Shown piece after piece: positions 6,400 to 26,882 of a stretch of DNA of 64,000 bases (positions within the stretch are counted from its first letter, which is position 1; every line of letters starts with the position of its first letter). A model generated the notes under the pieces. The model was not told where the DNA came from and did no database searches. It worked only from the letters and a program-made list of their open reading frames with translations. The position numbers and the translations under genes are program-made. Location of the stretch: contig JAGXRM010000044.1 of assembly GCA_018335855.1 (NCBI GenBank), positions 1 through 64,000 of the forward strand, read 5' to 3'. Source of the stretch: Clostridiales bacterium. GTDB lineage: Bacteria > Bacillota > Dethiobacteria > Dethiobacterales > Dethiobacteraceae.

Positions 6400-6579
6400 A
6401 AAATATATTTCTTCTTACAATTGAGGCGAGAAAGACATTTTTGGATTAAGTCATTTCATATTAAAGGGCGATGTTATTACTTCTTCATAACAGCATTGTC
6501 TCTTTTTATTTAAGAGCGTTACATATGTATTCATCAAAAATAGGGATAATATAACTTACGCTAGACTGGGGGTATGCTT
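6400..6579. other. gap before Wadjet locus with weak terminator
   Basis: An imperfect stem (GGCGATGTTAT ... ATAACAGCATTGTC, about 6466-6500) followed by TCTTTTTATTT looks like a weak terminator for the RDD/TPR pair. The promoter of the jet genes must lie in the following 60 bases; TAGGGATAATATAA near 6541-6554 is a possible -10 region. Confidence 0.35.
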
Positions 6580-7632
6580 ATGCTTGATATACTCGTGCAC
6601 ATTATTGCAACACAAAAATTAAAAACGGTAGAGACAATACATTTAGAAACAGAATTGATACAGAAAATGGGGATATCTTATGGAAAGCAAGGGGGATATC
6701 TTGCTTTTTCTCAGTGCATTCAAGAATTATGTGAGGACAAGCTACTAGAAGCTATAAAAGCTTCTAAGAGTAACGGGAGAAATCCCGCACTTTTTAACCG
6801 TTATAGGAAACAGCGAGAGGTTTTATCTAAAGAAGAGCAGGCAGAGTTTTTATTTTACCATTATAAAATTAAAACAACTAGATTTTTAAATCACCCTGAT
6901 ACTTATCGAAAATATAAACAGTACGTTCAGATACTAAGCGAATTTTTGTACAGACCTGATATAGAAGCGATTTTTTCCGTTCCCAATACTGCTAAAGAAC
7001 GGTCGTTCCAAATCTTTAAAGAGGAAAAGTTTTTGGAAGATAAAAATGGTAGGGAGTTTCTAACCATAACTGGTTTAACACTAAACGACCTAAATTGTTA
7101 TGTAACGTACGAGCCGTTTTTTTATAGTGATTTTACAAAAATAGAACCACAAGGGAAAATCCTAATTATTGAAAATAAGGACACCTTCGATTCACTAGAC
7201 AGGTGCTTTACTGCAGCCTACCCTAAGATTTTTAACATGCCAATTCGCCTTTTAATTTACGGCGAGGGTTGGAAGATTACACGTAGTCTTGGCTTTCTCT
7301 CTCGCATAATTGATGGGCCATGCCAGGTTTATTATTTTGGAGACATTGACGCGACAGGGATTGAAATTTTCGGAGAGCTTCAAAAGACATATCCAAATAT
7401 ACCTATTGAACCATATGTTCAGCTTTATGAACAATTACTGGATAAGTATTATAAAGATGCTCCGCCTATTCGGGACAAAAAACAACAGAAGAAATATGTT
7501 AGCGAGTTTCTGCATTATTTCCCAGAGCAATCTGCAAAACGAATTAAAACTCTCTTGGTAGAGAATAAATACATCCCACAGGAAGGATTGTCTTTTGGGT
7601 ACTTTCGGGAGGTGATACGTACTGATGTATGA
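6580..7632 (+). CDS. jetD: Wadjet protein JetD (toprim nuclease subunit)
   Basis: JetD is the DNA-cleaving, topoisomerase VI-like subunit of Wadjet, which extrudes and cuts closed circular DNA such as plasmids. The toprim core is visible: an acidic strand (ILIIENKDTF, about residue 196) and the DxD strand (YYFGDIDATGIEIF, about 250-263). The N-terminal half is the wing/arm region typical of DUF3322/DUF2220 proteins. The track start ATG at 6574 lies only one base after GGGG; ATG at 6580 has seven bases spacing and is preferred. The last 8 bases overlap jetA. Placing jetD first (D-A-B-C) differs from the well-studied A-B-C-D order. Confidence 0.85.
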   Translation: MLDILVHIIATQKLKTVETIHLETELIQKMGISYGKQGGYLAFSQCIQELCEDKLLEAIKASKSNGRNPALFNRYRKQREVLSKEEQAEFLFYHYKIKTTRFLNHPDTYRKYKQYVQILSEFLYRPDIEAIFSVPNTAKERSFQIFKEEKFLEDKNGREFLTITGLTLNDLNCYVTYEPFFYSDFTKIEPQGKILIIENKDTFDSLDRCFTAAYPKIFNMPIRLLIYGEGWKITRSLGFLSRIIDGPCQVYYFGDIDATGIEIFGELQKTYPNIPIEPYVQLYEQLLDKYYKDAPPIRDKKQQKKYVSEFLHYFPEQSAKRIKTLLVENKYIPQEGLSFGYFREVIRTDV

Positions 7633-9193
7633 GCTCAAAGATTTTGGCGAACGTATGAAGACTTTGGTGATGTTTGAGCCATTTTTTCAACTGCGTATTA
7701 ACCAGAAACATAATGAGAAATACAAGAAGTACGACATTGTGGCTATCGGTTTTGCCCTATTAATTCACTTAGCGGAAACGACCATGAATGGCCGTCCTCC
7801 GTGCAGTTTTAATGATATTAGAGCATTCTTTGATACTCTAATTCGAAATAACTACCACCAGGTTATGAGTGATGAAGAAACTATGGATATGGCGTACTAT
7901 TTTCTCGATATTTTGCAAAACAACGGGCGAGATTTTCAGGTGACGTATCAGGACTTGGAAACAGCAACTGTTTCCGCATCCACATTTAACCTTATTGAAG
8001 CTAAAAGTGATGATTCGTATTCTGACATACGCTACCGTCTCTCCAATACGGGGCTGGAGTTTCTCTTTAAATCACGGGAAATCTCAAAAGAATTGCGTAT
8101 GACAGTTGCACAAATCTACTTCCACCAGCAGATTGAACGAGGAGTGTTCAGCGGTGCTTTAAAATCCGTTCGTGATATGGAAATGCAGGTAGACAACCAG
8201 AGCGAAGAATGGGAGAGAGAACAGCAACGACTGGCTCGCAACATAAAACAGTTTGACCCAGATATGTACAGTGAGAGAGAAGAAAAAATGTATGACCAAT
8301 TTAATAAAGAAGCAGAAATGTTCCAGACGCTACAAAACCTCTTGGCGGAGCGGGTAGATGAGTTTCGTTCCCGTACCCTAACGGAAAAGGAACAGCAAAG
8401 CTTAAATCAACTGCTCGACATCAAAAATTCCCTTAACCGTGTTATTAACAAGCATAACCTACTGCTAAGCTTTAAAATGGGGTTTGATGGTTGGATTATT
8501 AAAGCAATGGCTGACAGTGTGGTCAGCAGTTTTCTAACGAGAGTAGACTTCTATCAGGAGTTCATTATCCCCATTCTTCAAAATGACCCACCACTGACCG
8601 ATGTGGGAAAAGTTTTAGCCCCGCTATTCCCGAAGAAACAAAAGAGAACCTTTAATCTGATGCGGGCATTTGAACCGCAGCAGTTGCCAAAGGATGTGGA
8701 TGATGGTGAAGACGAGCCGATACCCATCCCAACAGAAGAAGACTATGCTGAAGCAGCAAAGCGAGACAAGGTCATAATGGAACGGCAAAATCGTAAGTTT
8801 CTGGAATACATTTCCCTTTTTCTTACTCCGCTTCACCAAGGTCATACAAGATACTCCCTAAAAGAAGTGCTAAAAACGTTACATGTAAAACATTATGCCC
8901 GTGTTATTGGTGAAGTGGACTTTTATGCTTTTGTAGTTCGCATGCACCAACTTACAGCAATTCCTCTTTCAATTGATTCAGAAATCAAAAAAACCGCTGT
9001 GTTATCAAGTGACGACAACTTAATCTTTCTACTTATTAAATATGTGGAGGCACATCCCGAACTGGCATACTTACAGCAGGCTATCGTGTATTCCGATGAA
9101 GAAGAATTAGTTTTGCCAAACGGGTGCCGAATAACCAATTTCTATATAGTTGCCGACCAGAAAGGGGAAGAGAAACTTGTTCGAGTCTTATAA
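7625..9193 (+). CDS. jetA: Wadjet protein JetA (kleisin-like subunit)
   Basis: 522 residues. JetA corresponds to the kleisin (MukF-like) subunit that bridges the SMC-like heads. The N-terminal region is winged-helix-like (KYDIVAIGFALLIHL), the middle (about 185-260) is charged helical/coiled-coil, and the C-terminal region is again winged-helix-like. GGAGGTG lies upstream of the ATG, inside jetD, and the reading frames overlap by 8 bases, indicating translational coupling. I assign it from its position between jetD and a MukE-like gene and from general resemblance to the non-type-I JetA family; the exact Wadjet subtype is not resolved. Confidence 0.8.
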   Translation: MYELKDFGERMKTLVMFEPFFQLRINQKHNEKYKKYDIVAIGFALLIHLAETTMNGRPPCSFNDIRAFFDTLIRNNYHQVMSDEETMDMAYYFLDILQNNGRDFQVTYQDLETATVSASTFNLIEAKSDDSYSDIRYRLSNTGLEFLFKSREISKELRMTVAQIYFHQQIERGVFSGALKSVRDMEMQVDNQSEEWEREQQRLARNIKQFDPDMYSEREEKMYDQFNKEAEMFQTLQNLLAERVDEFRSRTLTEKEQQSLNQLLDIKNSLNRVINKHNLLLSFKMGFDGWIIKAMADSVVSSFLTRVDFYQEFIIPILQNDPPLTDVGKVLAPLFPKKQKRTFNLMRAFEPQQLPKDVDDGEDEPIPIPTEEDYAEAAKRDKVIMERQNRKFLEYISLFLTPLHQGHTRYSLKEVLKTLHVKHYARVIGEVDFYAFVVRMHQLTAIPLSIDSEIKKTAVLSSDDNLIFLLIKYVEAHPELAYLQQAIVYSDEEELVLPNGCRITNFYIVADQKGEEKLVRVL

Positions 9194-9935
9194 ACCTGAT
9201 ATAGCCCAGACAGCCGTGCGGGTCCTGCTTGAATTTATAAAAAACGGACAAATCACTCGAGTTAAGAATCCCGAACTGTTTGATGAGTATTATAAAAATC
9301 CCGATGTGCAGATGTTTTTTGAAAATATCGTCAACCCTACAGCCGACGTGACTCTATTGGAAACGCCTAATATGGTTGTTTTTTGTCCCAATCCTGATAA
9401 TCGATTTTTTGGCTACACTAACGAAGAGTTGCGTAAACAAATGATAGGCTCTAATACATCGAATACTGACTTATATCTAGGTTATTTTATAATTCTTTGC
9501 CTTCTTGCCGAATTTTACGGCCCAAATATAATAGATAATGAACTGTCAAACGGGGGCATTACCTACGTAAAAATTTCTGAACTGGTGAAAACGGTAACTG
9601 ATAGACTCCAGACAGTCGCAGACCGTGACGAAGACGAAATTAGCATGCTGGAATTTGAAACGGACACTAACCTAAAACAGGCCGCTAGGCACTGGCTGAA
9701 TAAGCCCGAGTATAATCCACGCTTGAAAATTCAACGGATTAGCCACCTAACACGAATGGGATTCGTGTTAAAGGTATGCAAATTTTTAGAGGACGAGGGC
9801 TTAGTCCATACTCAAAATGACCGAGAAGTCTACCTTAAAGAAAAGGCTCAGTTAATGGTACGTAGGTATTATGGGGACGCCCAGCGGAAAGAAACACTAA
9901 TGAAGTTTATCTTAAAACAGGAGGGACTTACCTAA
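9177..9935 (+). CDS. jetB: Wadjet protein JetB (MukE-like subunit)
   Basis: About 252 residues, helical, with two winged-helix-like parts, as expected for the KITE/MukE-type accessory subunit of an SMC-like complex. The start is decided by the ribosome site: AAAGGGGAAG (9161-9170) sits 6 bases before TTG at 9177, whereas the longer frame from TTG at 9150 has no such site. This start overlaps jetA by 17 bases. The stop overlaps the jetC ATG by one base (TAATG). Overlaps on both sides argue that all subunits are made in fixed proportion. Confidence 0.8.
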   Translation: MFESYKPDIAQTAVRVLLEFIKNGQITRVKNPELFDEYYKNPDVQMFFENIVNPTADVTLLETPNMVVFCPNPDNRFFGYTNEELRKQMIGSNTSNTDLYLGYFIILCLLAEFYGPNIIDNELSNGGITYVKISELVKTVTDRLQTVADRDEDEISMLEFETDTNLKQAARHWLNKPEYNPRLKIQRISHLTRMGFVLKVCKFLEDEGLVHTQNDREVYLKEKAQLMVRRYYGDAQRKETLMKFILKQEGLT

Positions 9936-12900
9936 TGCCACAAATTTGGCGTATTCGTCTTTCCAACATACAGTATGAGAAAGGTAAAAAAGTTATCAAT
10001 GATGAGATATTTCAAACGCACGGTGAAAACACGTTAATACAACTTACAAACGGGGGTGGAAAAACCCTCTCCATCCAACTGGTAATGCAGGTTGTGCTAC
10101 CTAATGTAGAGTTAAACAAACGAAAACTCGTTGAACTTCTGCATCAAAAATATACTGGTCATATACTCGTTGAATGGAAGCTTGACAACGTGTCAGACGA
10201 TTTTCTTTTGACAGGCTTTTGTTTTGCCCGTGGAAATAATGAAAATGGGTCGTTAAAATATTTTATGTACACCATACAGTATCAAAGCCTAAACGAACTT
10301 GACATTATGAATCTTCCCCTACGTGGTGAACAAGGGTATATTTCTTATCAGGAATTAAATGAATTTCTAAATGAACAGCGTAAAAGAATGGACGTTCAGG
10401 TGAAAATTTATGACAGGGACAGTAAACGGAGTGACTACCTTAGGGACTTGGAGTCGTTCCATTTATACGAAAAAGAGTGGAAAAACATTCGTAATACTAA
10501 TACCAAAGAGGGTGGCGTAGATGAGTTTTTTAAGTCTGTTGAATCTACCGTGCAACTCTTTGACAAGTATATCATTTCTTCTGTGGAAGAAGTGGTCTTT
10601 GGTGGCAAAGAGGAAGCCGAGTCACTTGCAAGCATTTTTCAAGAACACCAAAATAAACTCTGTCAAATTCCAGAAATTGAAAAACAGCTTCAGGCTTTCG
10701 GAAGTTTGGAAAAGGGTGGAGAAACCATCGTTGGTGAAGTTTTAGCACTGTCTACGGTAGATGATGAGTACTTGGTACAAAAAAGCCAAGCCCGCTTGCT
10801 TCATAATCGAATTGTTACAGAACAACAGATGCTAAGAGAACAAATCTATACGGCTAAAGAAGATTTGCATGGTTTTGCAAATAACCTAAGTGAACTACAA
10901 TACCAAAGTGCGAGTATTCCCTACGCTGAGTTAAAAGAAAAAGAGAAGGCGGCTCTAGAGCTGCGTGAAGTTTTGCACTCGAAAATAAACGAAGCTACAA
11001 TAACCCAAAATAGATTAGGGGAGCAACTTCGCCAGATGAATGCGAGCAACCTCTGGTTTGATATTCAGCTCTTAAAGGGAGATATTGCAGAAGCCAACAA
11101 AGGTATAGAGGTAGAAAGCAAAGAGAATAAGCTCGAGGTGCTATATAATGAACTCGATGTTTATCGGGCTACCTTACATGAGCGACTAAAAGAGCAAAAA
11201 GATGGTTACACAAAGCAGTTTAAGGCAGCTACCAGCTTACACAATCGCTATAATACAGCCCGACGCAAATGTGAGCCGTTAATTTCCAGAATGCAAAATG
11301 AAGTTGGTATTCTGAGCAATGAGATAACCCACCTGAAAAATGATTTACAAACAATATCCAATAAAGGCGTCGAACTGTTTGATGAATATCAAAGTATTGA
11401 ATGGATTGATAACCCCAATACTGCCATCGCTCATTTTATTAAGGAAGCATCCCGCATCCATAGCGAAAAGCAACGCATAGTACAGCGCCTTACTCAAATT
11501 GAACATGAAAAGGTAGAACACCAAACTAGAATGTTTGCCCTTACTTCCAAATTAGCAACCGCTATTCAGGAGCAGACACAGAAAAACAAAGAACATCAAG
11601 ACTATATGGAACAACTTTCTACCATGCAAGGAAAACTCGGGCACCATGAACTCTACAGTAAGGATATATTCGAGGACCAGGGTCGGCTATTTGCATCGTT
11701 AGAGCATAAAAAAAGCGAATTTTATACTCGTTATGACAGGTTTAGTGCGGAAAAACAACTATTAAGCGACCAGCTAGAATTGTTATCAGAAGGGCATTAC
11801 ATTCCAAACCGTAACATCATTCAACTTAAAGAGTTGTTGGAATCCACTGGCGCTGTTGTAATTACGGGTAGCGAGTGGCTTTCACGCATGCAAATAGATG
11901 GGACGAGAAAGGAACAGCTCCTGCGCAGCCAACCGCTGTTGCCTTACGCTGTGGTGATTTCGGAAGCTGATTTCAAAAAGATAAAAGCTCAAGTTTCCTT
12001 ATGGAGAAGGGTCACCATGATGGCATCCCCTGTTCCTATAATCGTCTACGGGGAGCACTTGCAATCCCAGGTCGATTCAGAAGACCACTCACTTCTGGCT
12101 GTAAACCAAAGCACCTACTTGGCGTGGCATAAAGGCTATCAATGTACCTTGTCAACCGAGGCGCTGGCTGATGCCCAACAGGAGTTACAGGAGAATATTT
12201 TCAGCAAGGAAAATCAGTTGGAGAAATTGCAGGATAGCATCCAACAGGTTACGGCTACACAAGCCATATTAACTACCTTTTACGGGCATTACACTAGCAA
12301 CACTTTGCCCGACCTTACAGCAGCTATAGAACGGTTAACAGCAGATATTTCAGCATATAAACAAGAGTGGGAAACACATGAGAGAGACATTAATGCCATA
12401 CTTTATGAACAGGAACAATTACAGGGTAAAAACGAGGAATTTGTGACGGCACAGAAACAAGCTGAACAATCTTCTAAGCGTTTTAAAGAATGGGCACAAG
12501 ACCTCTTAACTGAAAAAATTGCTAAAGGTGAAAAAAGAACCAAAGAATCCCGCCATGCGGTTTTGGAAAAGACCGTGGCGAAAATGATAGTAAATCGTGA
12601 CCGCATGAACGATAAATTGGAGCAGATAAAAGAGGTTACAGTCAGAACAGAGCAACTAATTCTTGAGACGGAAAAAGAACAAGCAAAATACCCATATCCC
12701 GTCAAAGCTGTAAGCTCGCTAAGTATTGGTCTGGCACAGGCGATTACGGGTTATGTGCAGCGTGAGGCAGCTATTAATAAAGTCGACTCCCGTATTGAAA
12801 TGTACAATGATAGAATACGGATGTGCGAGAAAAGGATTCAGGAGAAAATAGAAGAAATAGCTGAATTGCAAATTCCATATGATATGATTCAGCCAATCCA

Positions 12901-14353
12901 TTTAGCCTATCCAAGGAATGAACTATCCCAGGTGAAAAAATATGAACGGGATGTATCTGCCACTGTAAAAGCTTTAGAGTTGGAATGGCAGGCCGCAGAC
13001 AAAGAGGTCGCCAAACTGGGGAGCAACATCCAGCTCATCTTAGAGCGGATTGCCCAAGAGTATGAAGGAAGAAGGCCATATGCGTTTTCAGCCCTAGGAC
13101 TGGCTAAAGAAAGGCTTCCCCTGCTTCTCGCTAAAGCGGAGGACGACAAAACTCAAAAGCAGGCTGAAATCGGTACGCTAACGGAACTGTCTAACCAATA
13201 CGAGTTGGGCAGTGTTCGCCTTGATGCATCACTAAGTGATTACAGTATTATGGATGCAATTGGTGCCTTGCCTGACGAAGAATGGCTCACTATTAAAGAC
13301 ACTCTCGTTCCCTATATCGTTAGCATACAGAGTAGATTAAAAGAAATTAGCGGACGCTTTACTACAAAACGTGCTGAAGTGGATAAAGCCTATGAAGGAT
13401 TTTCCAGAACTCTTCAAAGCGAGGGAAATCAAAAACTTAAAACACTGGTCGATATGCTCCATGCGACAGATAAGCGATATCAAAAGGAGTATGTTACCGA
13501 AATGTTTTCGGAGGTATTTGCTCGTATTAAAATGCTTCGTGAGCGCGCAGAAAGCCAAAAGGAAACATGTGAACGGGAAAAGCATGAGTTGGTTAGACGT
13601 TGTGAACTGCATGCTCGGCGCCTAGCGGAAGAAATCGGGTCTATTGATAAATGTATGATGATTGAGTACGGTGGCAGGTCGCAAAAAGCGCTACAAATAA
13701 ACCTAAAAGAGCGGATGCAGCAACCGTCTTTAGAGTTGATGGCGCAATACGTAAATGAGTGTGTGGAGACTCTAAAAGATAAAGCGGACAACGGAGAATC
13801 CGAAGAAAAGCAGGAGCAGTATATTAGGCAATGTATGACATCCCGCCAGTTATTAAATGTCCTATACAATGTCAAGGATAGCACGATTCGTCTTCTAAAG
13901 CCCGAGGAATACCCTGGTCAGTCCCCACAGTATGACCCTTGGGAAGATGTGCATAAGTGGTCAGGTGGTGAAGGTTATGCAGGATGCATGGCTGTTTTTA
14001 TGGCTATTCTTAGTTATACACGGAGTCAGATTTGCGGGCTTCGAAATCCTCATAAGGTGCTACTTGCAGATAATCTGTTTGGCAAAGCTTCGGCCGCCCA
14101 CATACTTGATTATATTTTCCAACTTGCAAGTAATAATAATATCCAGTTACTTTGCTACACCGCCCTTACTTCAGGCACAATTTATCGGTATTTTCCTGTT
14201 GTGTACAGCCTGAAATTACGGAAAATCTATGACAGGGAATATATCCATACATTGCTGGCAAAAGATGAGGTTTTAAATATTGAGGCTGGTAATTATGATA
14301 TCACAGTACTAGAGCAGGAGCTGGAGGAAATGCGGCAAAGTAAGCAAGATTAA
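9935..14353 (+). CDS. jetC: Wadjet protein JetC (SMC/MukB-like ATPase)
   Basis: 1,472 residues. Walker A is at residues 39-44 (NGGGKT), the ABC signature at about 1342-1346 (SGGEG) and Walker B at about 1375-1379 (LLADN, followed by LFGK), i.e. head halves at both ends separated by long Gln/Glu/Lys-rich coiled coils with a hinge in between. This is the architecture of the motor that extrudes DNA loops in Wadjet. The Walker B Asp is followed by Asn, as in MukB/JetC-type proteins, not by Glu. It ends the jetDABC operon and faces the oppositely transcribed JAB-E1 gene with only 23 bases between stops. Confidence 0.9.
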   Translation: MPQIWRIRLSNIQYEKGKKVINDEIFQTHGENTLIQLTNGGGKTLSIQLVMQVVLPNVELNKRKLVELLHQKYTGHILVEWKLDNVSDDFLLTGFCFARGNNENGSLKYFMYTIQYQSLNELDIMNLPLRGEQGYISYQELNEFLNEQRKRMDVQVKIYDRDSKRSDYLRDLESFHLYEKEWKNIRNTNTKEGGVDEFFKSVESTVQLFDKYIISSVEEVVFGGKEEAESLASIFQEHQNKLCQIPEIEKQLQAFGSLEKGGETIVGEVLALSTVDDEYLVQKSQARLLHNRIVTEQQMLREQIYTAKEDLHGFANNLSELQYQSASIPYAELKEKEKAALELREVLHSKINEATITQNRLGEQLRQMNASNLWFDIQLLKGDIAEANKGIEVESKENKLEVLYNELDVYRATLHERLKEQKDGYTKQFKAATSLHNRYNTARRKCEPLISRMQNEVGILSNEITHLKNDLQTISNKGVELFDEYQSIEWIDNPNTAIAHFIKEASRIHSEKQRIVQRLTQIEHEKVEHQTRMFALTSKLATAIQEQTQKNKEHQDYMEQLSTMQGKLGHHELYSKDIFEDQGRLFASLEHKKSEFYTRYDRFSAEKQLLSDQLELLSEGHYIPNRNIIQLKELLESTGAVVITGSEWLSRMQIDGTRKEQLLRSQPLLPYAVVISEADFKKIKAQVSLWRRVTMMASPVPIIVYGEHLQSQVDSEDHSLLAVNQSTYLAWHKGYQCTLSTEALADAQQELQENIFSKENQLEKLQDSIQQVTATQAILTTFYGHYTSNTLPDLTAAIERLTADISAYKQEWETHERDINAILYEQEQLQGKNEEFVTAQKQAEQSSKRFKEWAQDLLTEKIAKGEKRTKESRHAVLEKTVAKMIVNRDRMNDKLEQIKEVTVRTEQLILETEKEQAKYPYPVKAVSSLSIGLAQAITGYVQREAAINKVDSRIEMYNDRIRMCEKRIQEKIEEIAELQIPYDMIQPIHLAYPRNELSQVKKYERDVSATVKALELEWQAADKEVAKLGSNIQLILERIAQEYEGRRPYAFSALGLAKERLPLLLAKAEDDKTQKQAEIGTLTELSNQYELGSVRLDASLSDYSIMDAIGALPDEEWLTIKDTLVPYIVSIQSRLKEISGRFTTKRAEVDKAYEGFSRTLQSEGNQKLKTLVDMLHATDKRYQKEYVTEMFSEVFARIKMLRERAESQKETCEREKHELVRRCELHARRLAEEIGSIDKCMMIEYGGRSQKALQINLKERMQQPSLELMAQYVNECVETLKDKADNGESEEKQEQYIRQCMTSRQLLNVLYNVKDSTIRLLKPEEYPGQSPQYDPWEDVHKWSGGEGYAGCMAVFMAILSYTRSQICGLRNPHKVLLADNLFGKASAAHILDYIFQLASNNNIQLLCYTALTSGTIYRYFPVVYSLKLRKIYDREYIHTLLAKDEVLNIEAGNYDITVLEQELEEMRQSKQD

Positions 14354-16305: not shown

Positions 16306-16500
16306 TGAGTACCTCCGTACAAAATTTTTGTTATATTAGCAGGTCATTAAAATAATGCCTGGAGAAAAGGGATGGGGGTAAGTAAGTTACTATCACCTCC
16401 TATATAACTGGCTCAAAATAAAAGAGACCGTTAGGAATCTTTCCCAACAATCTCGTCGATAGAATTATAGCTCTTTACTATATATACGAAACAGTCTTTA
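16306..16500 (-). promoter_or_regulatory. leader/control region of the Ubl-E2/JAB-E1 genes
   Basis: About 195 bases between the ImmA-like gene and the Ubl-E2 gene. In transcription order it contains the shared 23-bp motif (16501-16479), a possible TATAAT (16466-16461), an intrinsic terminator (16457-16419), an AGGAGGTGATAG that could serve a 21-codon leader ORF starting GTG, and the GGAGG of the Ubl-E2 gene. A terminator inside the leader means either that a second promoter lies after it or that it is an attenuator. Confidence 0.5.
16419..16457 (-). terminator. intrinsic terminator or attenuator upstream of Ubl-E2
   Basis: On the minus strand GAGATTGTTGGGA pairs with TCCTAACGGTCTC across the loop AAAGAT (using G-T pairs), followed by TTTTATTTT. 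It ends the sigma/ImmA operon but lies downstream of the 23-bp motif, so it would also act on any transcript starting at that motif. Confidence 0.75.
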
Positions 16501-16501
16501 T
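16479..16501 (-). promoter_or_regulatory. copy A of a shared 23-bp motif
   Basis: The plus strand reads TATATATACGAAACAGTCTTTAT, written here as one 23-bp unit in two parts: TATATATACGAAA and CAGTCTTTAT. The second copy at 18170-18192, upstream of the sigma gene, differs only at one pyrimidine (C/T). This copy overlaps the ImmA-like stop codon and precedes the Ubl-E2 gene. It is probably a promoter element or operator shared by both transcription units. Confidence 0.7.
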
Positions 16502-16983
16502 CAAAATTTATTGAGTTTTTGTAGTGAAATAAAAATCACCTCATTGCTAACACAACATCTTGATGCCATTTCTGGAATGGTTAAACCTTCTTTATTAAAA
16601 AGATTTATATGCTTTAATGGTACTAATAACTCCCGTGCAAACTCAAAAGCTTCATTTTCCTGTACATTGCGGAACTTTTCAAAGTCATTAGATTGTCCAT
16701 TATAGTTATGAAAATCTATATCATGATGTAAGAAAATGTGACCTAATTCATGCGCGATAGATAATCTTTGTCTGTGAAGATGGTCATTCTTATTTACAAC
16801 AATAACTTTTTCTTGTCTGTTAAATTGTGCACAGACAGCCATTAATTCATATTCAACGTCAAATCCTTCGCCCTGCGCAACATACACAACATCAACTGGA
16901 GGCACAAGATTATATTTTTTTGAAACTTTTCTGGCCATTTCCCGTGTATAGCCAACACGAACTTTTTGCTGCTCATCAAACAT
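16501..16983 (-). CDS. ImmA/IrrE-family metallopeptidase
   Basis: 160 residues. The zinc-protease motif HELGH is at residues 78-82 and the third ligand region ExxAxxFAxxLLxP follows at 109-122. ImmA/IrrE proteases cleave a partner repressor or regulator in response to stress, for example phage or mobile-element regulators and DdrO in Deinococcus. A GGGGGG site precedes the ATG. It is the third gene of the sigma operon, 15 bases after the 216-aa gene. The nearest candidate substrates are that 216-aa protein and the sigma factor; this is inference. Confidence 0.85.
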   Translation of the reverse strand: MFDEQQKVRVGYTREMARKVSKKYNLVPPVDVVYVAQGEGFDVEYELMAVCAQFNRQEKVIVVNKNDHLHRQRLSIAHELGHIFLHHDIDFHNYNGQSNDFEKFRNVQENEAFEFARELLVPLKHINLFNKEGLTIPEMASRCCVSNEVIFISLQKLNKF

Positions 16984-16998
16984 ATTTTACCCCCCAAC

Positions 16999-17649
16999 TT
17001 AAAGAAGTTCTTTTGCTTTCTCTAGGAAGTTATATTTCTTCCTTAGTTCTCTTTTAAAAGAGACATAATCAGCGGAAACTTCTTGTGCTTTTTGCTGTTC
17101 TCTTGCTTCAAATTTAGTGTCAGACCTGGCAAGGACAGTTCCTGTGCTAGATGGGACAGGAAACGTGGCCATAATAGAACTAAGCAAATCATCAAGAGAG
17201 CAATTTAACGTTTCCTGCAATTCCTTAAGACGTTCAATTGATAGTCGCCAGGGAGAAAATCTTCGTTGTTTTAGCAGTTCTACATCTTGTGGGTTAAGGT
17301 TTATTGACTGTATAATTTGGTTCATATCTATTACTTTATCTTCTAAGTGAGAATCAATGAATTTGAAAAAGTCAATAGACCCTACAGAAGATATCTTTTT
17401 TTCTTCAAGTCCACGAAGAGCTGAATATAAAAAAGCTATATGAGTTGCTTCGGAAACTCTTTCGTCAAGGTCAAGAGCAAAGGTAATATTAAAGATATCC
17501 TCATCAAAACGACCATCACTTTCTAAAGCGGCTTCATACATTAAATCATCCATTTCATTAATATCCTCAATTATGTCTACGGGTGCGTTCTTTTCTATTT
17601 GTTGTGCTTCTTTTTGTAATTCTATAAGCCATTTCGGCAAATTGGCCAT
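16999..17649 (-). CDS. unknown 216-residue protein between sigma factor and protease
   Basis: Soluble, acidic N-terminal half, charged helical C-terminus. Residues about 130-165 (SPWRLSIERLKELQETLNC) have the feel of a small helical DNA- or protein-binding segment, but no helix-turn-helix family is assignable. The ATG has AAAGGGAG 7 bases upstream. Its place between an ECF sigma gene (15 bases upstream) and an ImmA-like protease suggests the role of a soluble anti-sigma factor or protease substrate. No direct evidence of this is in the sequence. Confidence 0.6.
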   Translation of the reverse strand: MANLPKWLIELQKEAQQIEKNAPVDIIEDINEMDDLMYEAALESDGRFDEDIFNITFALDLDERVSEATHIAFLYSALRGLEEKKISSVGSIDFFKFIDSHLEDKVIDMNQIIQSINLNPQDVELLKQRRFSPWRLSIERLKELQETLNCSLDDLLSSIMATFPVPSSTGTVLARSDTKFEAREQQKAQEVSADYVSFKRELRKKYNFLEKAKELL

Positions 17650-17664
17650 TAATTTACACTCCCT

Positions 17665-18153
17665 TTAAGATTCTAATTTTTCTTTTATCATAGTCTTTAA
17701 TTTATAAATCATGAAACCAACTGTTCCACTTTTTACGCACAATATTTCCCCGATTTCTTCATAAGTGTAACGATGTTCAAAACGAAGAGCATAAAGTGCT
17801 TGGTATCTTTCATCTAGAGTATCTACAATTTCTCTCACATGGTGTTTTATAGCTCCCTTATCTCTGTCAACAGATTTCGTAACAGGAGTATAGTCTGTTA
17901 GTGCAACCTGTTCAATATTTTTCATTTTTAATCTGTCGTAGCATAGGTGCTTCGTTACAGTGTAGAGCCAGTTTTTGGGGTTCCCTTTGTTTTTGTCAAA
18001 AGAACAGAATAAGCGATAAAAGACATCGTTTACAATCTCTTCAGCATCTTGTTTGTTATTAACTACTCTTTGAGCATACCAAAAAAGTGGACCTTTGAAT
18101 AACGACACAATCTGTTCCAACTCTTCCTGCGTAACATTGCCGTCTTCACTCAT
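17665..18153 (-). CDS. ECF-type RNA polymerase sigma factor
   Basis: 162 residues. Region 2 is at about 10-80 (QDAEEIVNDVFYRLF and NWLYTVTKHLCYDRL) and region 4 at about 108-160 (LDERYQALYALRFEH, YTYEEIGEILCVKSGTVGF). This two-domain layout is diagnostic of ECF sigma factors. There is a very strong ribosome site GGGGAGGGG. The 23-bp motif ends 16 bases before the ATG, leaving room for only a very short leader. The same motif lies before the Ubl-E2 gene, which suggests autoregulation plus control of the conjugation genes. Confidence 0.9.
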   Translation of the reverse strand: MSEDGNVTQEELEQIVSLFKGPLFWYAQRVVNNKQDAEEIVNDVFYRLFCSFDKNKGNPKNWLYTVTKHLCYDRLKMKNIEQVALTDYTPVTKSVDRDKGAIKHHVREIVDTLDERYQALYALRFEHRYTYEEIGEILCVKSGTVGFMIYKLKTMIKEKLES

Positions 18154-18169
18154 GACTTACCCCTCCCCT

Positions 18170-18192
18170 TATATATACGAAATAGTCTTTAT
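18170..18192 (-). promoter_or_regulatory. copy B of the shared 23-bp motif, upstream of the sigma gene
   Basis: On the minus strand it reads ATAAAGACTATTT then CGTATATATA. It is identical to copy A except at one position. CGTA resembles the -10 element of several ECF promoters, but no conserved GAAC-like -35 is present at the usual distance in the two copies, so whether this is a promoter or an operator is open. Confidence 0.7.
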
Positions 18193-18316
18193 GAAGGCCA
18201 GATAAACAGGTTAACAAAGTCTATTGGGTTTTATTATATATTAATTAAAAATTTACCAAATCCTGCAAGTTAATTAAAGAATTTGTAAATAATTAGATTA
18301 TTATAGGATAAATAGA

Positions 18317-18358
18317 AAATAAGTGGCAAGCCCTGAAATTGGGTCATGCCACTTATTT
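18317..18358 (-). terminator. hairpin terminator, probably bidirectional
   Basis: AAATAAGTGGCA (18317-18328) and TGCCACTTATTT (18347-18358) are perfectly complementary. The minus-strand continuation ATTTTCTATTTAT is U-rich. It would close the EVE/HTH gene and its small downstream ORF, separating them from the sigma operon. Confidence 0.7.
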
Positions 18359-20432: not shown

Positions 20433-20510
20433 AGGCCCCTCAACAACGGATTAGTAAATCAGTTGCGAACTTAATAAAATATTTTTATTCTAGCTTGAGA
20501 GGTGAATTTA

Positions 20511-21338
20511 ATGGCAAAAAATCTTGCAGCAAAAGATAAGCGCAGATTGAAAGAGGAAAGAGGTGCTGGCGTTGGTGAAAACTACAAACCTTATATACGC
20601 ACTCAAGATGCGGGTAAACTTGGAAGGACCACTAGGGTAAAAGGGATTAAAACCAATAGAACCCATAATCTTCTATCGGATTTGGAAACCAACTTTATGC
20701 ATATATTGGAATATTCAGATATCGTTGTTGATATTAGGGAGCAATTCCCGCTAGATTTAGAAGAAACAAATAGGATTGCTGAAGACCTAGGAGTTAAACA
20801 TCCCGTCTGCTCGACCACGAAAGAACCAGTAGTAATGACAACAGACTTCTTAATTACAGTTCGTTATAATAACAAGCAGATGGATGTAGCAAGAACCTGT
20901 AAGTATGCCAAAGATTTAATTGAGAGGCAGATTATAAAGTTCGAAATCGAAAGGGAATATTGGGCTAGGAAAGGCGTAGATTGGGCGATTGTAACTGATT
21001 TCGAAGTGAATAAAACGTTTGCCCAAAATATTAAGTTCATTCACAGTTTCTACAGCTTGGACAACCTGGAAGGCTTCGAATCTATAAAAAAACAAGAGCG
21101 AGCAAGGCTTATTCAGTCATTTAAGCAGCAGATTGTTGGCGACAGCGTTATCATTCGGGACATTTCAAGTAACTTTGATGACAGCAATTCCCTACTCGTA
21201 GGTACAAGCCTTTCGATTTATAAACATCTGCTTATGACGAAACAGATTTCTGTAGACCTAAATAAAAAGCTCAACTTTGACCACCCTGAATCAGTAATCC
21301 TTTATCCCCATGAGAGAATGGAGAGAAGAGCTGTATGA
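20511..21338 (+). CDS. tnsA: TnsA-type endonuclease of a Tn7-like transposon
   Basis: About 275 residues. TnsA makes the 5'-strand cuts at the transposon ends, working with TnsB. The N-terminal nuclease domain is recognisable (LLSDLETNFMHILEYSD with the metal-binding Glu, then VVDIREQFPL and TTDFLI with the catalytic Asp near residue 110), and the C-terminal helical domain follows. ATG at 20511 is chosen over GTG 20502 because of the GAGAGG spacing. The last four bases overlap tnsB. TnsA implies cut-and-paste, not copy-in, transposition. Confidence 0.85.
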   Translation: MAKNLAAKDKRRLKEERGAGVGENYKPYIRTQDAGKLGRTTRVKGIKTNRTHNLLSDLETNFMHILEYSDIVVDIREQFPLDLEETNRIAEDLGVKHPVCSTTKEPVVMTTDFLITVRYNNKQMDVARTCKYAKDLIERQIIKFEIEREYWARKGVDWAIVTDFEVNKTFAQNIKFIHSFYSLDNLEGFESIKKQERARLIQSFKQQIVGDSVIIRDISSNFDDSNSLLVGTSLSIYKHLLMTKQISVDLNKKLNFDHPESVILYPHERMERRAV

Positions 21339-23467
21339 TTGAGCTACTGTATAAGAATATGGTACTTCAATTCGGTGATGGAGAGTTAGTACGGGTCATT
21401 AGGATGGGTGAGGTCTGGACTTACTATGTAGAGCTTCGGGGTTCAGGAACTATGCCAAAATCCATAGCCACCAGAGAAATTGAGGCGAATATACAGGAAA
21501 ATATTTGGCGTGTTGTTGATGACCCTTTCCAGCAATTAAAAGATGAAAATTCCCTTCCAGATAAGTATAAGGATGTCAGGGATAAGAATTCTGAGGTAAT
21601 GGATTATATTTTCAAAGAAAGAATTGATGAGTTCTTAACTTATTCTACCAGGGGAACTGTAATAAATGAGGCTGCTGAAAGGTTTAATGTGCCTGTGGTG
21701 ACGGTAAGAAAACTATCCGTAAGATATATGCAGCGGGGAATGACGAAAAATAGCTTGCTCCCTGACTATGATAATTGCGGATTGAGAGGACAGAAGAAGA
21801 AGGTTTCTGATAAAAAAAGAGGAAGGCCCAGAGACCCAGATAGCAAGGGGAAAATAATTTCTGGCATGAATACCACGTCAGAAGATGAAGAGAAGTATAA
21901 TAGTGCAATTAAGAAATATTACAAAGAGGATGATAGGCACTCAATTGCAAGAACGTACCAAATGCTATTGTTAGATGAGTATTCGGAGCTTGTTTTCGGG
22001 AAGAATGGTACAGTCACCCCCAAAACCTATGGTGTCGAGCATATTCCAACTTACCACCAATTTTACTATCACCTAAAAAAGAGCCTAGATAAAAAGGAGA
22101 TTATAATAGCTAGATACGGTGAAAAAGAATATAACTTAAATCACCGACCTCTCGTGGGTAATTCCATGCAAGAGGTACTTGGACCTGGTTCAAAGTATCA
22201 AATTGATACTACACAAGGAAAGATTAAACTGGTAAGTCCCTTGGATGGTAAATCTGAAATTGGCAAGCCATGGTTTACGTTCGCAATTGATGTGTACTCA
22301 AGGTTAATAGCAGCGATGTATGTTTCACTTCAAAATCCATCATGGATATCAGCGATGATGACTTTGGAGAATATGATAGCGGACAAGGACGAATTTTTAA
22401 GACAATACGGATTGGATGTGTTAGTCGGAACACAGTGGTCTTGTAGCAATTGTTTGCCAGAAGTAATTTTAGCCGACAAGGGCGAATGGAAATGGTATAA
22501 CGCCAATAATCTGGTAAACAACCTTAATATCCGAGTCGAGAATGCTCCTTCGTACAGACCAGACTTGAAAGGTATTGTAGAAAGTCTAAATCGTTCAATT
22601 CATGAGAGAATCAAAGCACTTCCTGGTGCTACGTACAGACCTGGGCAACCAGGGGAAAGGGAAGAAGAGGCCGCATTGACGCTTAGGCAACTCACGCAAA
22701 TTGTAATATGGGAGGTCTGGAGGCATAACACAACTACCAAACCGCACTGTCATAAAGAAGAAGCGTTAACTATTGATGGCATTTCAAGCAGACCCATTGA
22801 TGTATGGAATTGGGGTATTGAAAACAGGAAAGGTGGCTTCTTCAAGGTGGATAAAAATATTGCTAGGCTTCATTTCTTACCCAAAGCAGAAGGGGGACTA
22901 AGTGATGTCGGACTCAGATTTAAGGGTCTAGGCTATACACCAGTTTCAAGGCGATTACAAGAACAGCTATTTGTTAACAGGAAAGGTGAACAAGTTGAAG
23001 TTGCCTATGACCCAAGAAATATGGATAACGCTTATATTATTTGCGACGGTGGTAAGGATTTTATAGCTTGTACGTTGACAGAAAAGTACAGCATGTTTCG
23101 GGAGAAGTCAGAAAAAGAAATTCAAGTGCAGAAAAAAATTAATAAGAATATAGATTTAGATTATGTAGACAGTGATAACGATACGAATGCATTGGTAAAT
23201 CAAGCGTACCAAAACATGGTGAAAGGAATTGCTAAACAGAACAGGTCAAATAAGGCAGCACCGAACAAGCAATCCGTTACTGAGAACAGGAATGCAGCTA
23301 AAAAAGAACAGAGTGAAGAAGAGATTATTAGGTTGGTACCCAGTACTGAGTCTGTGTCAAATGTTGTTCCTGTTTGGAAACAGCAAGTTTTCGAGAGAAG
23401 CAGGCATGGCAAAGACCGCATTATCAGTAAAATGCAAAAGAAATTGGACGGTGATATAGGTGGTTAG
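21335..23467 (+). CDS. tnsB: TnsB-type DDE transposase
   Basis: 710 residues. This transposase binds the transposon ends and makes the 3' cuts and joining. The catalytic triad is visible: Asp in YQIDTTQG (about 290), Asp in VILADKGEW (about 381) and Glu in KGIVESLNRS (about 417). N-terminal helix-turn-helix DNA-binding segments and a C-terminal beta-barrel plus charged tail that would contact TnsC complete the family layout. The ATG overlaps tnsA (ATGA) and the stop overlaps tnsC, indicating a coupled operon. Confidence 0.9.
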   Translation: MIELLYKNMVLQFGDGELVRVIRMGEVWTYYVELRGSGTMPKSIATREIEANIQENIWRVVDDPFQQLKDENSLPDKYKDVRDKNSEVMDYIFKERIDEFLTYSTRGTVINEAAERFNVPVVTVRKLSVRYMQRGMTKNSLLPDYDNCGLRGQKKKVSDKKRGRPRDPDSKGKIISGMNTTSEDEEKYNSAIKKYYKEDDRHSIARTYQMLLLDEYSELVFGKNGTVTPKTYGVEHIPTYHQFYYHLKKSLDKKEIIIARYGEKEYNLNHRPLVGNSMQEVLGPGSKYQIDTTQGKIKLVSPLDGKSEIGKPWFTFAIDVYSRLIAAMYVSLQNPSWISAMMTLENMIADKDEFLRQYGLDVLVGTQWSCSNCLPEVILADKGEWKWYNANNLVNNLNIRVENAPSYRPDLKGIVESLNRSIHERIKALPGATYRPGQPGEREEEAALTLRQLTQIVIWEVWRHNTTTKPHCHKEEALTIDGISSRPIDVWNWGIENRKGGFFKVDKNIARLHFLPKAEGGLSDVGLRFKGLGYTPVSRRLQEQLFVNRKGEQVEVAYDPRNMDNAYIICDGGKDFIACTLTEKYSMFREKSEKEIQVQKKINKNIDLDYVDSDNDTNALVNQAYQNMVKGIAKQNRSNKAAPNKQSVTENRNAAKKEQSEEEIIRLVPSTESVSNVVPVWKQQVFERSRHGKDRIISKMQKKLDGDIGG

Positions 23468-25121
23468 CCCTGAAACGACGTTAAGAGGGGAAGTTATTGA
23501 AGACCCGATATATCTTCCCCAACCTTTAGAGGAGTATGATTGCAACCCATTTATTCAAGCTTTGAATCCGATATCTAATGAAGATGAGGTGTTGGATTAT
23601 AGTACTAATTACCCCTTATTTAAGGTATCAGAAAGGGAATATGGGCCAGAAATTAGAGCGCATATGATTGTGAGGTTGAAGGAATTTAGGTATCCCATGC
23701 ACCTGAATGTTCGTCTCGAACGTGCTATTTCTATTAAAATTAGAAGGGGATACACATCCCGCAATCCACTTAATAAAGAATTTCATCTGAAATTATTAGA
23801 CTTATCTGAGATAGATAAGTTGGAAGATGATAATTTAAGAAAAGAGAAGATAAAAGAAATTAAAAAAAAATATCCATCGAGTGCGGACTGTTTAACGGTA
23901 ATTGGCACTAGCGGTACTGGGAAAACAACTGGAGTCGATAATATTTTGCAAAACTATCCGCAAGTTATCAGGCACACTTTCGAAGGTGGTGTTGTAACTC
24001 AAATAGTGTGGCTGAAGCTAGAATGTCCCCATGATGGTTCAGTAAAAGGCTTGCTGTTACAATTTTTTATATCAATTGATGAAATCTTAGGTACAAATTA
24101 TTTTAATAAATACAAACGGGAAACGGTAGAGCTACTTCAAATATTCGCAGCTCAGACAGCCTCACGACATGGGATTGGTCTGTTAGTTATTGACGAAATC
24201 CAGCACTTAAAGAACCCCAAGAACAAGGATTCTGATGATAAAATAATGAACTTCCTTGTGAAACTGGTTAATACTATTGGTGTTCCTATCGTACTAATCG
24301 GAACACATGCAGCTAGAGAAATTCTTACAAAGACCTTCCGTCAGGCAAACAGGGCTGCAGGGGAAGGAACAATAGAATGGGATAGGATGGAGAACGATAC
24401 AGAATTCAGGCTTTTTGTAAAAGAAGTAATGAGGTATCAATGGCAAAAAAATGCAATCCAGTATTCAGACGAGTTTGGTGACGTTTTATACTATGAGTCA
24501 CAGGGTATTGTTAAAGTTGCGATAAGTCTATTTATCTTGGCTCAGTTAAGAGCGATACTTGATGGGGATGAGACCATTAGCGGTCAGCTAATACATGATG
24601 TGGCTGTAAAAGAACTTAATCTGTATCAGCAAATGCTAGATGATTTGAGAAATGGTAGGAAAGACAAACTTAAACTATATAAGGACATGCCAGATTTAGA
24701 TAAAATAATAGAGTTTAAAGTTAATCAGGTGGAAAAAAATAATTATCTTGAGCGCGTAAAAGAGCAGCAAACAAAAAATGAACATCAAAATATTCTAGAA
24801 GACCTACTATTTGAATTAGAGAATTCGGGCATGTTTAATATTCTTGGAAGAGAAGCATTGAAAAAAGTTGTCAATGCAGAATTTAATGTGTTAAATAATT
24901 GGAAGGGGGACATGGCTGAGTTAAAAAGATTATGCTTTGAAGCGGCGCTTCAAGAAATAAGGAAATCTGAAAGCAAGAAGCGTAACCCACGAAAACGAAA
25001 ACAAGAAAATAAAGGCGTGCTAATACAGATTTTTGAAAAAGCACAGAAAGATAAAGTCTCTGTTTATGAAAGACTAAAATCAGAAGGCTTCATTAAACAC
25101 AGTAGTGAGTTTTTAGAGTAG
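23460..25121 (+). CDS. tnsC: TnsC-type AAA+ ATPase regulator
   Basis: 553 residues from a GTG start inside the end of tnsB. Walker A is GTSGTGKT (about 149-156) and Walker B is LLVIDEIQH (about 241-249), typical of TnsC/TniB/MuB-like AAA+ proteins that assemble on target DNA and recruit the transposase. The N-terminal 120 residues probably contact TnsB or TniQ; a very basic region (KKRNPRKRKQENK, about 510-525) lies near the C-terminus. It is followed within 16 bases by the first tniQ gene. Confidence 0.9.
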   Translation: MVSPETTLRGEVIEDPIYLPQPLEEYDCNPFIQALNPISNEDEVLDYSTNYPLFKVSEREYGPEIRAHMIVRLKEFRYPMHLNVRLERAISIKIRRGYTSRNPLNKEFHLKLLDLSEIDKLEDDNLRKEKIKEIKKKYPSSADCLTVIGTSGTGKTTGVDNILQNYPQVIRHTFEGGVVTQIVWLKLECPHDGSVKGLLLQFFISIDEILGTNYFNKYKRETVELLQIFAAQTASRHGIGLLVIDEIQHLKNPKNKDSDDKIMNFLVKLVNTIGVPIVLIGTHAAREILTKTFRQANRAAGEGTIEWDRMENDTEFRLFVKEVMRYQWQKNAIQYSDEFGDVLYYESQGIVKVAISLFILAQLRAILDGDETISGQLIHDVAVKELNLYQQMLDDLRNGRKDKLKLYKDMPDLDKIIEFKVNQVEKNNYLERVKEQQTKNEHQNILEDLLFELENSGMFNILGREALKKVVNAEFNVLNNWKGDMAELKRLCFEAALQEIRKSESKKRNPRKRKQENKGVLIQIFEKAQKDKVSVYERLKSEGFIKHSSEFLE

Positions 25122-25136
25122 GCAGGAGTGAAAGCC

Positions 25137-26882
25137 GTGCTTCCTTATTTCCCCCGTCCCTATATGGAAGAAATCTTATATAGCATAATTGCCAGGTATC
25201 ATTATTACTCTGGCAATCATGCTTATAAGGACACACTTGTCGATGTTTTTTGCTCTAATTCAATTATCCCAACAGTAGAATTCCCAACAAACCTTGAAGT
25301 CTTATCAAGTAGACTTTCGAGTGAGCAGTATAGCGTCGACAATATAATTAATTGTTACACCCTTCTTCCATTTTACAGCCCCTTTTTACCTGTGGAACGA
25401 CGGCAGGAATTATCTAACCTGATGGCTAAGGGGAGTGGTCAGGGTATCTATACAAAAATTGGGTTTGTTGCAGGTAGTGTATGCAAAAAAGATGGATTGG
25501 AATATTGTCCAAAATGTATTGAAGAAAACCATAATAACTATGGGGAAGCATATTTTCACAGAATTCATCAATTGCAAGGGATAAAGGTTTGTACAACACA
25601 TAAATGTAAACTTAAGCTATATCCTGTTACAAAAAGACACGCAAGTCGGATTAGTTTTATCAGGCTAGATTATAGGCTGGCAGATATGTCCGTTGAATAT
25701 GTTAAAGATGATTTTGTGGCGGCTAAATTACACCAAATTGCCGAACAAGCATTTCTCATTAAGGACTACTTAAAAGAGTTTGATAGGAAAAAGCTTCAAG
25801 CCCAATATTTTACCATGCTGGGGGAGAATGGCCTACTCACCCAAGGTGGTCGTGTCAGGCAAAAAGATTTATGCGGTGAATTTAAAACTTACTATGGTGA
25901 ACTATTACTCAATGAGCTAGACTCAAACTATTCTAAAGACGAAGGTTGGAATTGGTTAAGTGATATAATCTGGAAACCGCATAAAGTTTCACACCCGATA
26001 AGGCATATACTTCTCATATTGTTTTTAAGCAGAACTGTAAAAGAATTTGCTCAATACATCCCAACACAAAAGTCAGAACCATTTGGTTTAGGACAGTGGC
26101 CTTGCCTAAATAAAGCTTCAAGTCATTATAAAAAGAAAGTCATAACAAATTGTAACGTAACACAGGACAGCAAAACTAAACAACCTGTTGGAACCTTTAC
26201 TTGCTCATGTGGTTTCGTTTACTCTCGACGTGGCCCAGATAGTAGTGAGGAAGATTTATATCACATAGGTAGGACAAAGAAATTTGGATATGTCTGGGAA
26301 CAAAGATTAACGAACTTAATTAATCAAAATAAAATGAGTCTTAGAGCTTTAGCAAGGGAGATGGGCTGTGACCCTAAAACAGTAGTAAATATGGCACATC
26401 AAATGGGGTTAGAATCAAAGATTCAATCAAAAATGCAACCAAAGCAAATAATCCGAAATAAATCAACAGAGTTAAAGGGGTTATATCATACACAGAGTTC
26501 ATTGAAATCAAAAAAGCAACCTAGGTTTAAAGTTGATTGGGCACAAAGAGATGCTGATGTGGCTCACGACGTAGAGGTTATATGTGAAACAATCCTGAGT
26601 AATGTGCCGCCACAGAGAGTAACTAAATCCCTAATAGAAAAGAAGATTGCCAAATCAGGGATACGGCATTATCTTAACAAAATGCCAAAAACAAAACTCC
26701 TAATTGACAATCAAACTGAGTCTGTTAAAAAATTTCAAATACGAAGGGTTCACTACATCTCCAGAGAGCTTTTAAAGAAGAACCAAGAAGTTAGGGAATG
26801 GGAGGTAATGAGGTTAGCTGGATTGAAACAAAATAGCTCCCCCGAGGTCATAGCGGCAATACAACAATACATAGAAATGTAG
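25137..26882 (+). CDS. tnsD: TniQ/TnsD-type target selector, long paralogue
   Basis: About 581 residues. TnsD/TniQ proteins recognise the insertion site and recruit TnsC. The N-terminal TniQ domain starts YFPRPYMEEILYS; a zinc motif follows (YCPKCIEEN ... FHRIHQL ... CTTHKC, about 125-165). A second Cys cluster (CSCGFVYSRR, about 360) and a helix-turn-helix segment (SLRALAREMGCDPKTVVNMA) form the C-terminal DNA-recognition part of TnsD. GTG at 25137 is preferred over GTG at 25128, because GCAGGAG then has proper spacing and the start aligns with the next paralogue. Confidence 0.85.
   Translation: MLPYFPRPYMEEILYSIIARYHYYSGNHAYKDTLVDVFCSNSIIPTVEFPTNLEVLSSRLSSEQYSVDNIINCYTLLPFYSPFLPVERRQELSNLMAKGSGQGIYTKIGFVAGSVCKKDGLEYCPKCIEENHNNYGEAYFHRIHQLQGIKVCTTHKCKLKLYPVTKRHASRISFIRLDYRLADMSVEYVKDDFVAAKLHQIAEQAFLIKDYLKEFDRKKLQAQYFTMLGENGLLTQGGRVRQKDLCGEFKTYYGELLLNELDSNYSKDEGWNWLSDIIWKPHKVSHPIRHILLILFLSRTVKEFAQYIPTQKSEPFGLGQWPCLNKASSHYKKKVITNCNVTQDSKTKQPVGTFTCSCGFVYSRRGPDSSEEDLYHIGRTKKFGYVWEQRLTNLINQNKMSLRALAREMGCDPKTVVNMAHQMGLESKIQSKMQPKQIIRNKSTELKGLYHTQSSLKSKKQPRFKVDWAQRDADVAHDVEVICETILSNVPPQRVTKSLIEKKIAKSGIRHYLNKMPKTKLLIDNQTESVKKFQIRRVHYISRELLKKNQEVREWEVMRLAGLKQNSSPEVIAAIQQYIEM

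Follow-up and report, generated by a model that had tools for sequence, protein, structure and literature searches.

A 23-bp motif, ATAAAGACT[A/G]TTTCGTATATATA, occurs twice on the minus strand of a Clostridiales bacterium contig (Dethiobacteraceae; JAGXRM010000044.1), first ahead of a gene for an ECF sigma factor and again ahead of putative Ubl-conjugation genes, and paired elements are found in corresponding places beside sigma and immune-type operons of other bacteria. We consider it probable, though by no means assured, that the ECF sigma of the locus reads both copies as promoters and that it is freed when the M78 peptidase encoded beside it cleaves a 216-aa inhibitor. The window analysed here comprises positions 1 to 64,000 of the contig, and the features of the locus are listed in Table 1.

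Table 1. Features of the sigma/M78 and Ubl-conjugation locus.
Feature	Position	Strand	Remarks
Motif copy 1	18170..18192	-	ATAAAGACTATTTCGTATATATA; 16 nt between its end and the sigma ATG; proposed autoregulatory promoter
Motif copy 2	16479..16501	-	ATAAAGACTGTTTCGTATATATA; first base is the last base of the M78 TGA stop; proposed promoter of the Ubl genes
ECF sigma factor, 162 aa	17665..18153	-	Pfam Sigma70_r2 (44.5 bits) and Sigma70_r4_2 (29.6 bits), both above cut-off
216-aa protein	16999..17649	-	Proposed sigma inhibitor and M78 substrate; role suggested by position
M78 (ImmA/IrrE/CapP-like) peptidase, 160 aa	16501..16983	-	HELGH intact; Pfam M78 60.6 bits
Putative Ubl-E2 fusion (BubA+BubB-like), 185 aa	15748..16305	-	Weak profile matches
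JAB-E1 fusion (BubCD-like), 456 aa	14377..15747	-	ThiF 128.5 bits and Prok-JAB; best PDB match Citrobacter BubCD
Strong terminator-like hairpin, U-rich tail	16424..16454	-	Between copy 2 and the Ubl-E2 gene; -18.5 kcal/mol, z -4.7
Sigma-A-like match	16477..16504	-	TTGATA-N16-TATAGT; overlaps copy 2
Sigma-A-like match	18300..18329	-	TTGCCA-N18-TATAAT; upstream of copy 1; consensus match only

The minus-strand genes run in the order ECF sigma, 216-aa protein, M78 peptidase, putative Ubl-E2 fusion and JAB-E1, an arrangement best taken as a Bub-type operon accompanied by a regulatory set of sigma and M78, in which the Ubl-E2 gene is weakly assigned. The sigma factor has the Sigma70 regions 2 and 4 without region 3 that define ECF (group 4) factors, and is SigW-like by comparison with the PDB, in which SigW and SigE were matched. 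The peptidase belongs to the CapP family of CapH+CapP systems (PADLOC capP, E=1.8e-17); the protein is shorter than the model, of whose 242 positions the match spans only 6-145. The 216-aa protein between them has a sub-threshold match to the Pfam profile HTH_26 (residues 101-157) and none to the PADLOC capH model; no relatives of it were found in 398 genomes of the phylum and 98 of the class, in plasmids, in IMG/VR or in a pattern scan of GTDB contigs, and its single-sequence fold (pLDDT 39) was not used. The JAB-E1 protein joins an E1 to a JAB deconjugase, corresponding to BubC and BubD of Bub systems. The 185-aa ORF ahead of it has a weak C-terminal match to BubB (E 4e-4), a weaker N-terminal match to BubA (E 0.025) and no Pfam match, and no such ORF was found in plasmids. 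Further along the window, Wadjet-type genes at 6574-14353 (plus strand; a 352-aa candidate JetD, then JetA, JetB and JetC, the last three with PADLOC matches) are oriented toward the BubCD-like gene, and these neighbours give the locus the appearance of a segment of a defence island. Four plus-strand ORFs at 20502-26882 (278, 710, 553 and 584 aa) resemble by eye a Tn7-like TnsA/TnsB/TnsC/TniQ set.

The two copies are identical at 22 of 23 positions without gaps, and at 24 of 26 when the comparison is extended; upstream of the 23-mer there is no conservation between them. They are direct repeats 1691 nt apart, enclosing exactly the sigma-216 aa-M78 cassette, and the motif is not palindromic. 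Among 1000 dinucleotide-preserving shuffles of both upstream regions the best 23-mer match was 19 (mean 15.8), and the observed match was never reached (0/1000), which excludes a chance pair. When a 19-base core was searched across the whole 2.96-Mb genome at up to 3 mismatches, the two exact copies were accompanied by four matches, each at 3 mismatches; the reversed core, used as a control, gave two matches at 3 mismatches. The first-pass annotation had placed the near-identical copies where we find them, had put the first 16 bases before the sigma start codon, and had seen no third copy in the window. These observations stand, and the last now extends to the entire genome for the core at up to 2 mismatches; the scattered genomic copies that it had named as grounds for refutation were looked for, and at this threshold the two in the locus are the only ones. 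The motif string given there contains a dash that is not a base, and counted as one (24 bases) it has no matches. At up to 1 mismatch the core is absent from all 97 of the other genomes of the class. An exact 17-mer of the motif has seven matches in IMG/VR, none of them close to homologues of genes of the locus.

As promoter-like sequence the copies have in common only a (C)GTATA block and what adjoins it. Neither has a -35 element at the distance usual for ECF target promoters, whose -35 and -10 elements lie 16-17 nt apart; this difference concerns the promoter assignment and not the sigma protein. Matches to the sigma-A consensus are no more numerous in the region than in shuffles. The one upstream of copy 1 is possibly a basal promoter, judging by its sequence, and overlaps the terminator hairpin of the upstream gene (18317-18358).

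To place the locus among its relatives, BubCD homologues were scanned, giving 80 genomic loci plus plasmid loci, and sigma-like genes near bub were sought by iterated profile searches. Such a gene adjoins bub in ten loci from several phyla (L106, L083, L101, L084, L091, L093, L058, L050, L023 and L078), usually in the order sigma - X - M78. The peptidase varies among them: L050 carries its M78 gene on the other strand, L084 has M78 joined to a UvrD helicase, L093 encodes a caspase-fold peptidase in place of M78, and in L091 no peptidase was recognised. The L084 fusion (L084:156-3602) is a 1149-aa protein with an N-terminal M78 domain, encoded by the third gene after sigma and X; ORFs of ~1100 aa near bub in L046, L052, L054, L057 and L060 also match M78 profiles and may resemble it. 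The L093 enzyme (L093:2455-3273), a Peptidase_C14 within the sigma-X operon at the position of M78 elsewhere, suggests that peptidases are exchanged within the sigma-X set. Over the whole collection of loci, about forty have an M78-like gene, in some cases together with a CapH-like HTH, an arrangement already published for Bub operons. Eight more matches came from searching 395 Bacteroidota genomes with the bub-sigma profile; among them L165 is a CBASS operon (Cap15-type effector, CD-NTase and E2), L166 is an E1/E2/Ubl operon, in L160-L164 sigma and M78 occur but no immune operon was recognised, and L167, lacking M78, resembles an ordinary ECF locus. In the phylum of the window, 29 of the nearest ECF loci served as a control, and none has an M78 neighbour. 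The sigma family was not found in IMG/VR. X has no recognisable HTH in several relatives, and in several no DNA-binding protein other than the sigma was recognised in the set; the 216-aa protein and the X proteins have no detectable relationship.

Six of these loci (L106, L083, L101, L084, L091 and L093) have a divergent gap between sigma and bub that holds two TGTCACGCTT-type elements, one directed toward each gene; a GTAT/TTTA block usually comes 2-4 nt after the element. A similar pair precedes the CBASS operon of L165, and an altered version, GTAACGGTTT, was seen by eye in L166. An alignment anchored on the element shows almost no variation at positions 1-9, with additional conservation at +12, +15 and +17. 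In leave-one-locus-out scans, 8 of the 9 loci had their top match in the gap where it was expected, L166 being the failure, and it is this cross-locus scan that carries the case for paired elements; the inverted-pair test on single gaps is weak alone, its null being reached in shuffles 30/30 times for L083, 11/30 for L093 and 8/30 for L084. The distance from element to start codon is 37-47 nt in the relatives and 39 nt to the sigma ATG in the window. The sigma proteins of the paired-element loci share only 23-41% identity with the L106 protein, so that an element common to these loci is unlikely to reflect mere recent ancestry. A strict form of the pattern has 0-3 matches in each of the relatives' genomes, and additional TGTCACGCTT matches inspected outside the sigma locus lie mostly within coding sequence.

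The inverted elements of the six sigma/bub gaps are spaced 8-10 or 20-21 nt apart; a spacing of about one helical turn may reflect a same-face constraint, as seen in these six loci only. No significant pair was found in L050, L058, L078 or L023: the candidate pairs in L058 and L023 were dropped as self-matching palindromes, and those in L050 and L078 are not claimed, a gapped two-block promoter search giving p=0.06 and p=1. The same gapped search on the window gave p=0.15 and is far less powerful than the ungapped test. A match of the element matrix in a phage contig (L028) overlaps a small ORF, with no sigma gene nearby, and was set aside.

In the placement of the elements the window agrees with the relatives, as it does in having a (C)GTAT(A) block at an equal offset. 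Its layout is that of L161 and L164, in which an element stands before sigma and again just after M78, ahead of the next gene; these are stand-alone sigma/M78 sets (L161:4772-7300 and L164:4724-7640), the second element preceding a HicB-like gene. The exact motif of the window is in no other locus found, its upstream block ATAAAGACT is its own, and the matrix built from the relatives does not recognise it (rank 3660 of 127964), a difference to be expected if each sigma has its own specificity. Since the match is in layout and not in sequence, the comparison supports the design and not the sequence. A long leader and a hairpin also set copy 2 apart from the operon-side elements of the relatives. 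The earlier expectation that homologous loci would carry the same motif in the same two places is thus borne out in form only, by paired elements beside Bub, CBASS or E1/E2/Ubl operons and, in L161 and L164, by elements in the two places occupied in the window.

From these data we infer that copy 1 is read by the sigma and serves as the promoter of sigma-216 aa-M78, giving autoregulation, and that copy 2 is the promoter of the Ubl-E2 and E1-JAB genes. In resting cells the sigma would be held inactive by the 216-aa protein, whose roles as sigma inhibitor and peptidase substrate are proposed from gene order and by analogy with CASP and Calp. A signal would then activate the M78 peptidase; DNA damage or ssDNA is the most likely one, because such M78 peptidases are ssDNA-activated, as in Deinococcus PprI and in CapP. 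The active peptidase would cleave the 216-aa protein, and the freed sigma, by binding the element at both promoters, would raise its own operon and the Bub operon together. The sigma is favoured as the reader because it is the only DNA-binding protein recognised in several relatives and the element accompanies these sets. Common control of the sigma operon and the Ubl genes, as originally proposed, is supported by the paired elements in independent sigma-X-M78 sets; of the two controllers then suggested, the sigma itself or a repressor cleaved by the protease, the former gains ground and the latter is kept open by the weak HTH of the 216-aa protein.

The main rival casts the 216-aa protein as that repressor, with the motif as its operator over housekeeping promoters, M78 cleavage derepressing both operons, and the sigma acting elsewhere or additively. 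The weak HTH of the protein is in keeping with this, whereas X in relatives of the same design has no recognisable HTH and the motif is not a palindrome, unlike most HTH operators. A sigma-A-like match does lie over copy 2, but copy 1 is the poorer match. CapH+CapP, in which CapP cleaves CapH, is a published form of control of Bub operons, and CapH-like and CapP-like genes flank other Bub loci; repression would, however, leave the recurrent sigma gene unexplained, and we judge this reading rather unlikely, if serious. A separate activator could instead bind the motif and act together with the housekeeping polymerase, in the manner of PafBC at its -26/-10 promoters, where a conserved block lies just upstream of the -10 and not at -35 (PMC11804915). 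The copies have this layout, the conserved block being directly beside a -10-like block with no -35, but PafBC promoters are read by WYL proteins with the housekeeping sigma; no WYL protein or other activator was recognised in the sets of the window or its relatives, and the elements accompany a sigma gene. We hold an activator to be very improbable.

Control might also be exerted after initiation, copy 2 transcripts ending at the U-tailed hairpin that directly follows it, as a short RNA or attenuated leader, and the Ubl genes being governed by read-through. If copy 2 drives the Ubl operon, this hairpin must indeed be read through or otherwise overcome, and a structured leader lies behind it. 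There is no minus-strand sigma-A-like match between the hairpin and the Ubl-E2 gene, so that on this account the gene would be without a promoter of its own, and the leader has no Rfam match; as a full explanation we hold it to be very improbable, and as an added layer it is compatible with sigma-driven transcription from copy 2. The leader itself (118 nt, 16306-16423, minus strand) has long-range pairing around GGAGG, with a z-score of -2.4 over its whole length. Lastly, the copies could be end repeats that remained after the cassette inserted or recombined, since they directly repeat on either side of just these three genes and elements enclose the corresponding genes in L161 and L164, or else a chance pair, but eight divergent loci have inverted pairs inside one short gap with no cassette enclosed, the distance to start codons is fixed and chance fails the shuffles, making both readings unlikely in the extreme.

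Relays of protease, anti-sigma and ECF sigma are established in CASP (PMC10028731) and Calp. CASP/Craspase of type III-E CRISPR loci (Csx29 protease, Csx30 inhibitor and CASP-sigma) resembles the window in having a protease, an inhibitor (here a proposed one) and an ECF sigma in one defence locus, and the CASP-sigma motif is present in several promoters of its own locus (PMC10028731); the window likewise has an ECF sigma and a peptidase gene within one set and a repeated motif in its own putative promoters, in two copies confined to the locus. It differs in that the Craspase peptidase is a target-RNA-activated TPR-CHAT protein and not M78, the operon is another, and the inhibitor is unrelated as far as can be seen. 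CalpL/CalpT/CalpS of type III CRISPR uses a cA4-activated Lon protease, with no M78 and no Ubl genes. CapH+CapP, an HTH repressor and M78 peptidase of CBASS and Bub operons, shares with the window a CapP-like M78 beside the same kind of operon, whereas here a sigma is added, the protein encoded between sigma and peptidase does not clearly qualify as an HTH repressor, and positive rather than purely negative control is proposed. In Deinococcus the ssDNA-activated M78 peptidase PprI (IrrE) cleaves the regulator DdrO, and ssDNA activation is also known for CapP (PMC10904395); the target of PprI is a repressor of a DNA-damage regulon, and no sigma factor takes part. CapK+CapS and CapW are further controllers beside Bub operons (PMC13373217), comprising a kinase/repressor pair or a WYL repressor with neither sigma factor nor M78 peptidase. 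A 2021 survey mentions, as a related notion, ECF sigma factors adjoining caspase-containing conflict systems, in the parts available to us without M78 or Bub (PMC8195603). We found no description of a sigma-X-M78 set in the open-access literature searched, and an earlier one may exist outside it.

The protease-linked sigma set looks like a self-amplifying switch for immune-type operons. Somewhat more tentatively, it may be a general controller, in which an M78 peptidase, CapP-like and sometimes helicase-fused, frees a dedicated ECF-type sigma to act on compact promoters lacking a canonical -35, at Bub, CBASS and other Ubl operons in several phyla. In the accessible literature, the controllers known for Bub operons (CapW, CapH+CapP and CapK+CapS) are repressor-based, whereas a protease-released sigma, if true, would be a positive and self-amplifying switch, and would link the CapP-type DNA-damage peptidases with the protease/anti-sigma logic of CRISPR loci. 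A design with two promoters lends itself to simple tests, and further immune operons could be found by their sigma-X-M78 signature.
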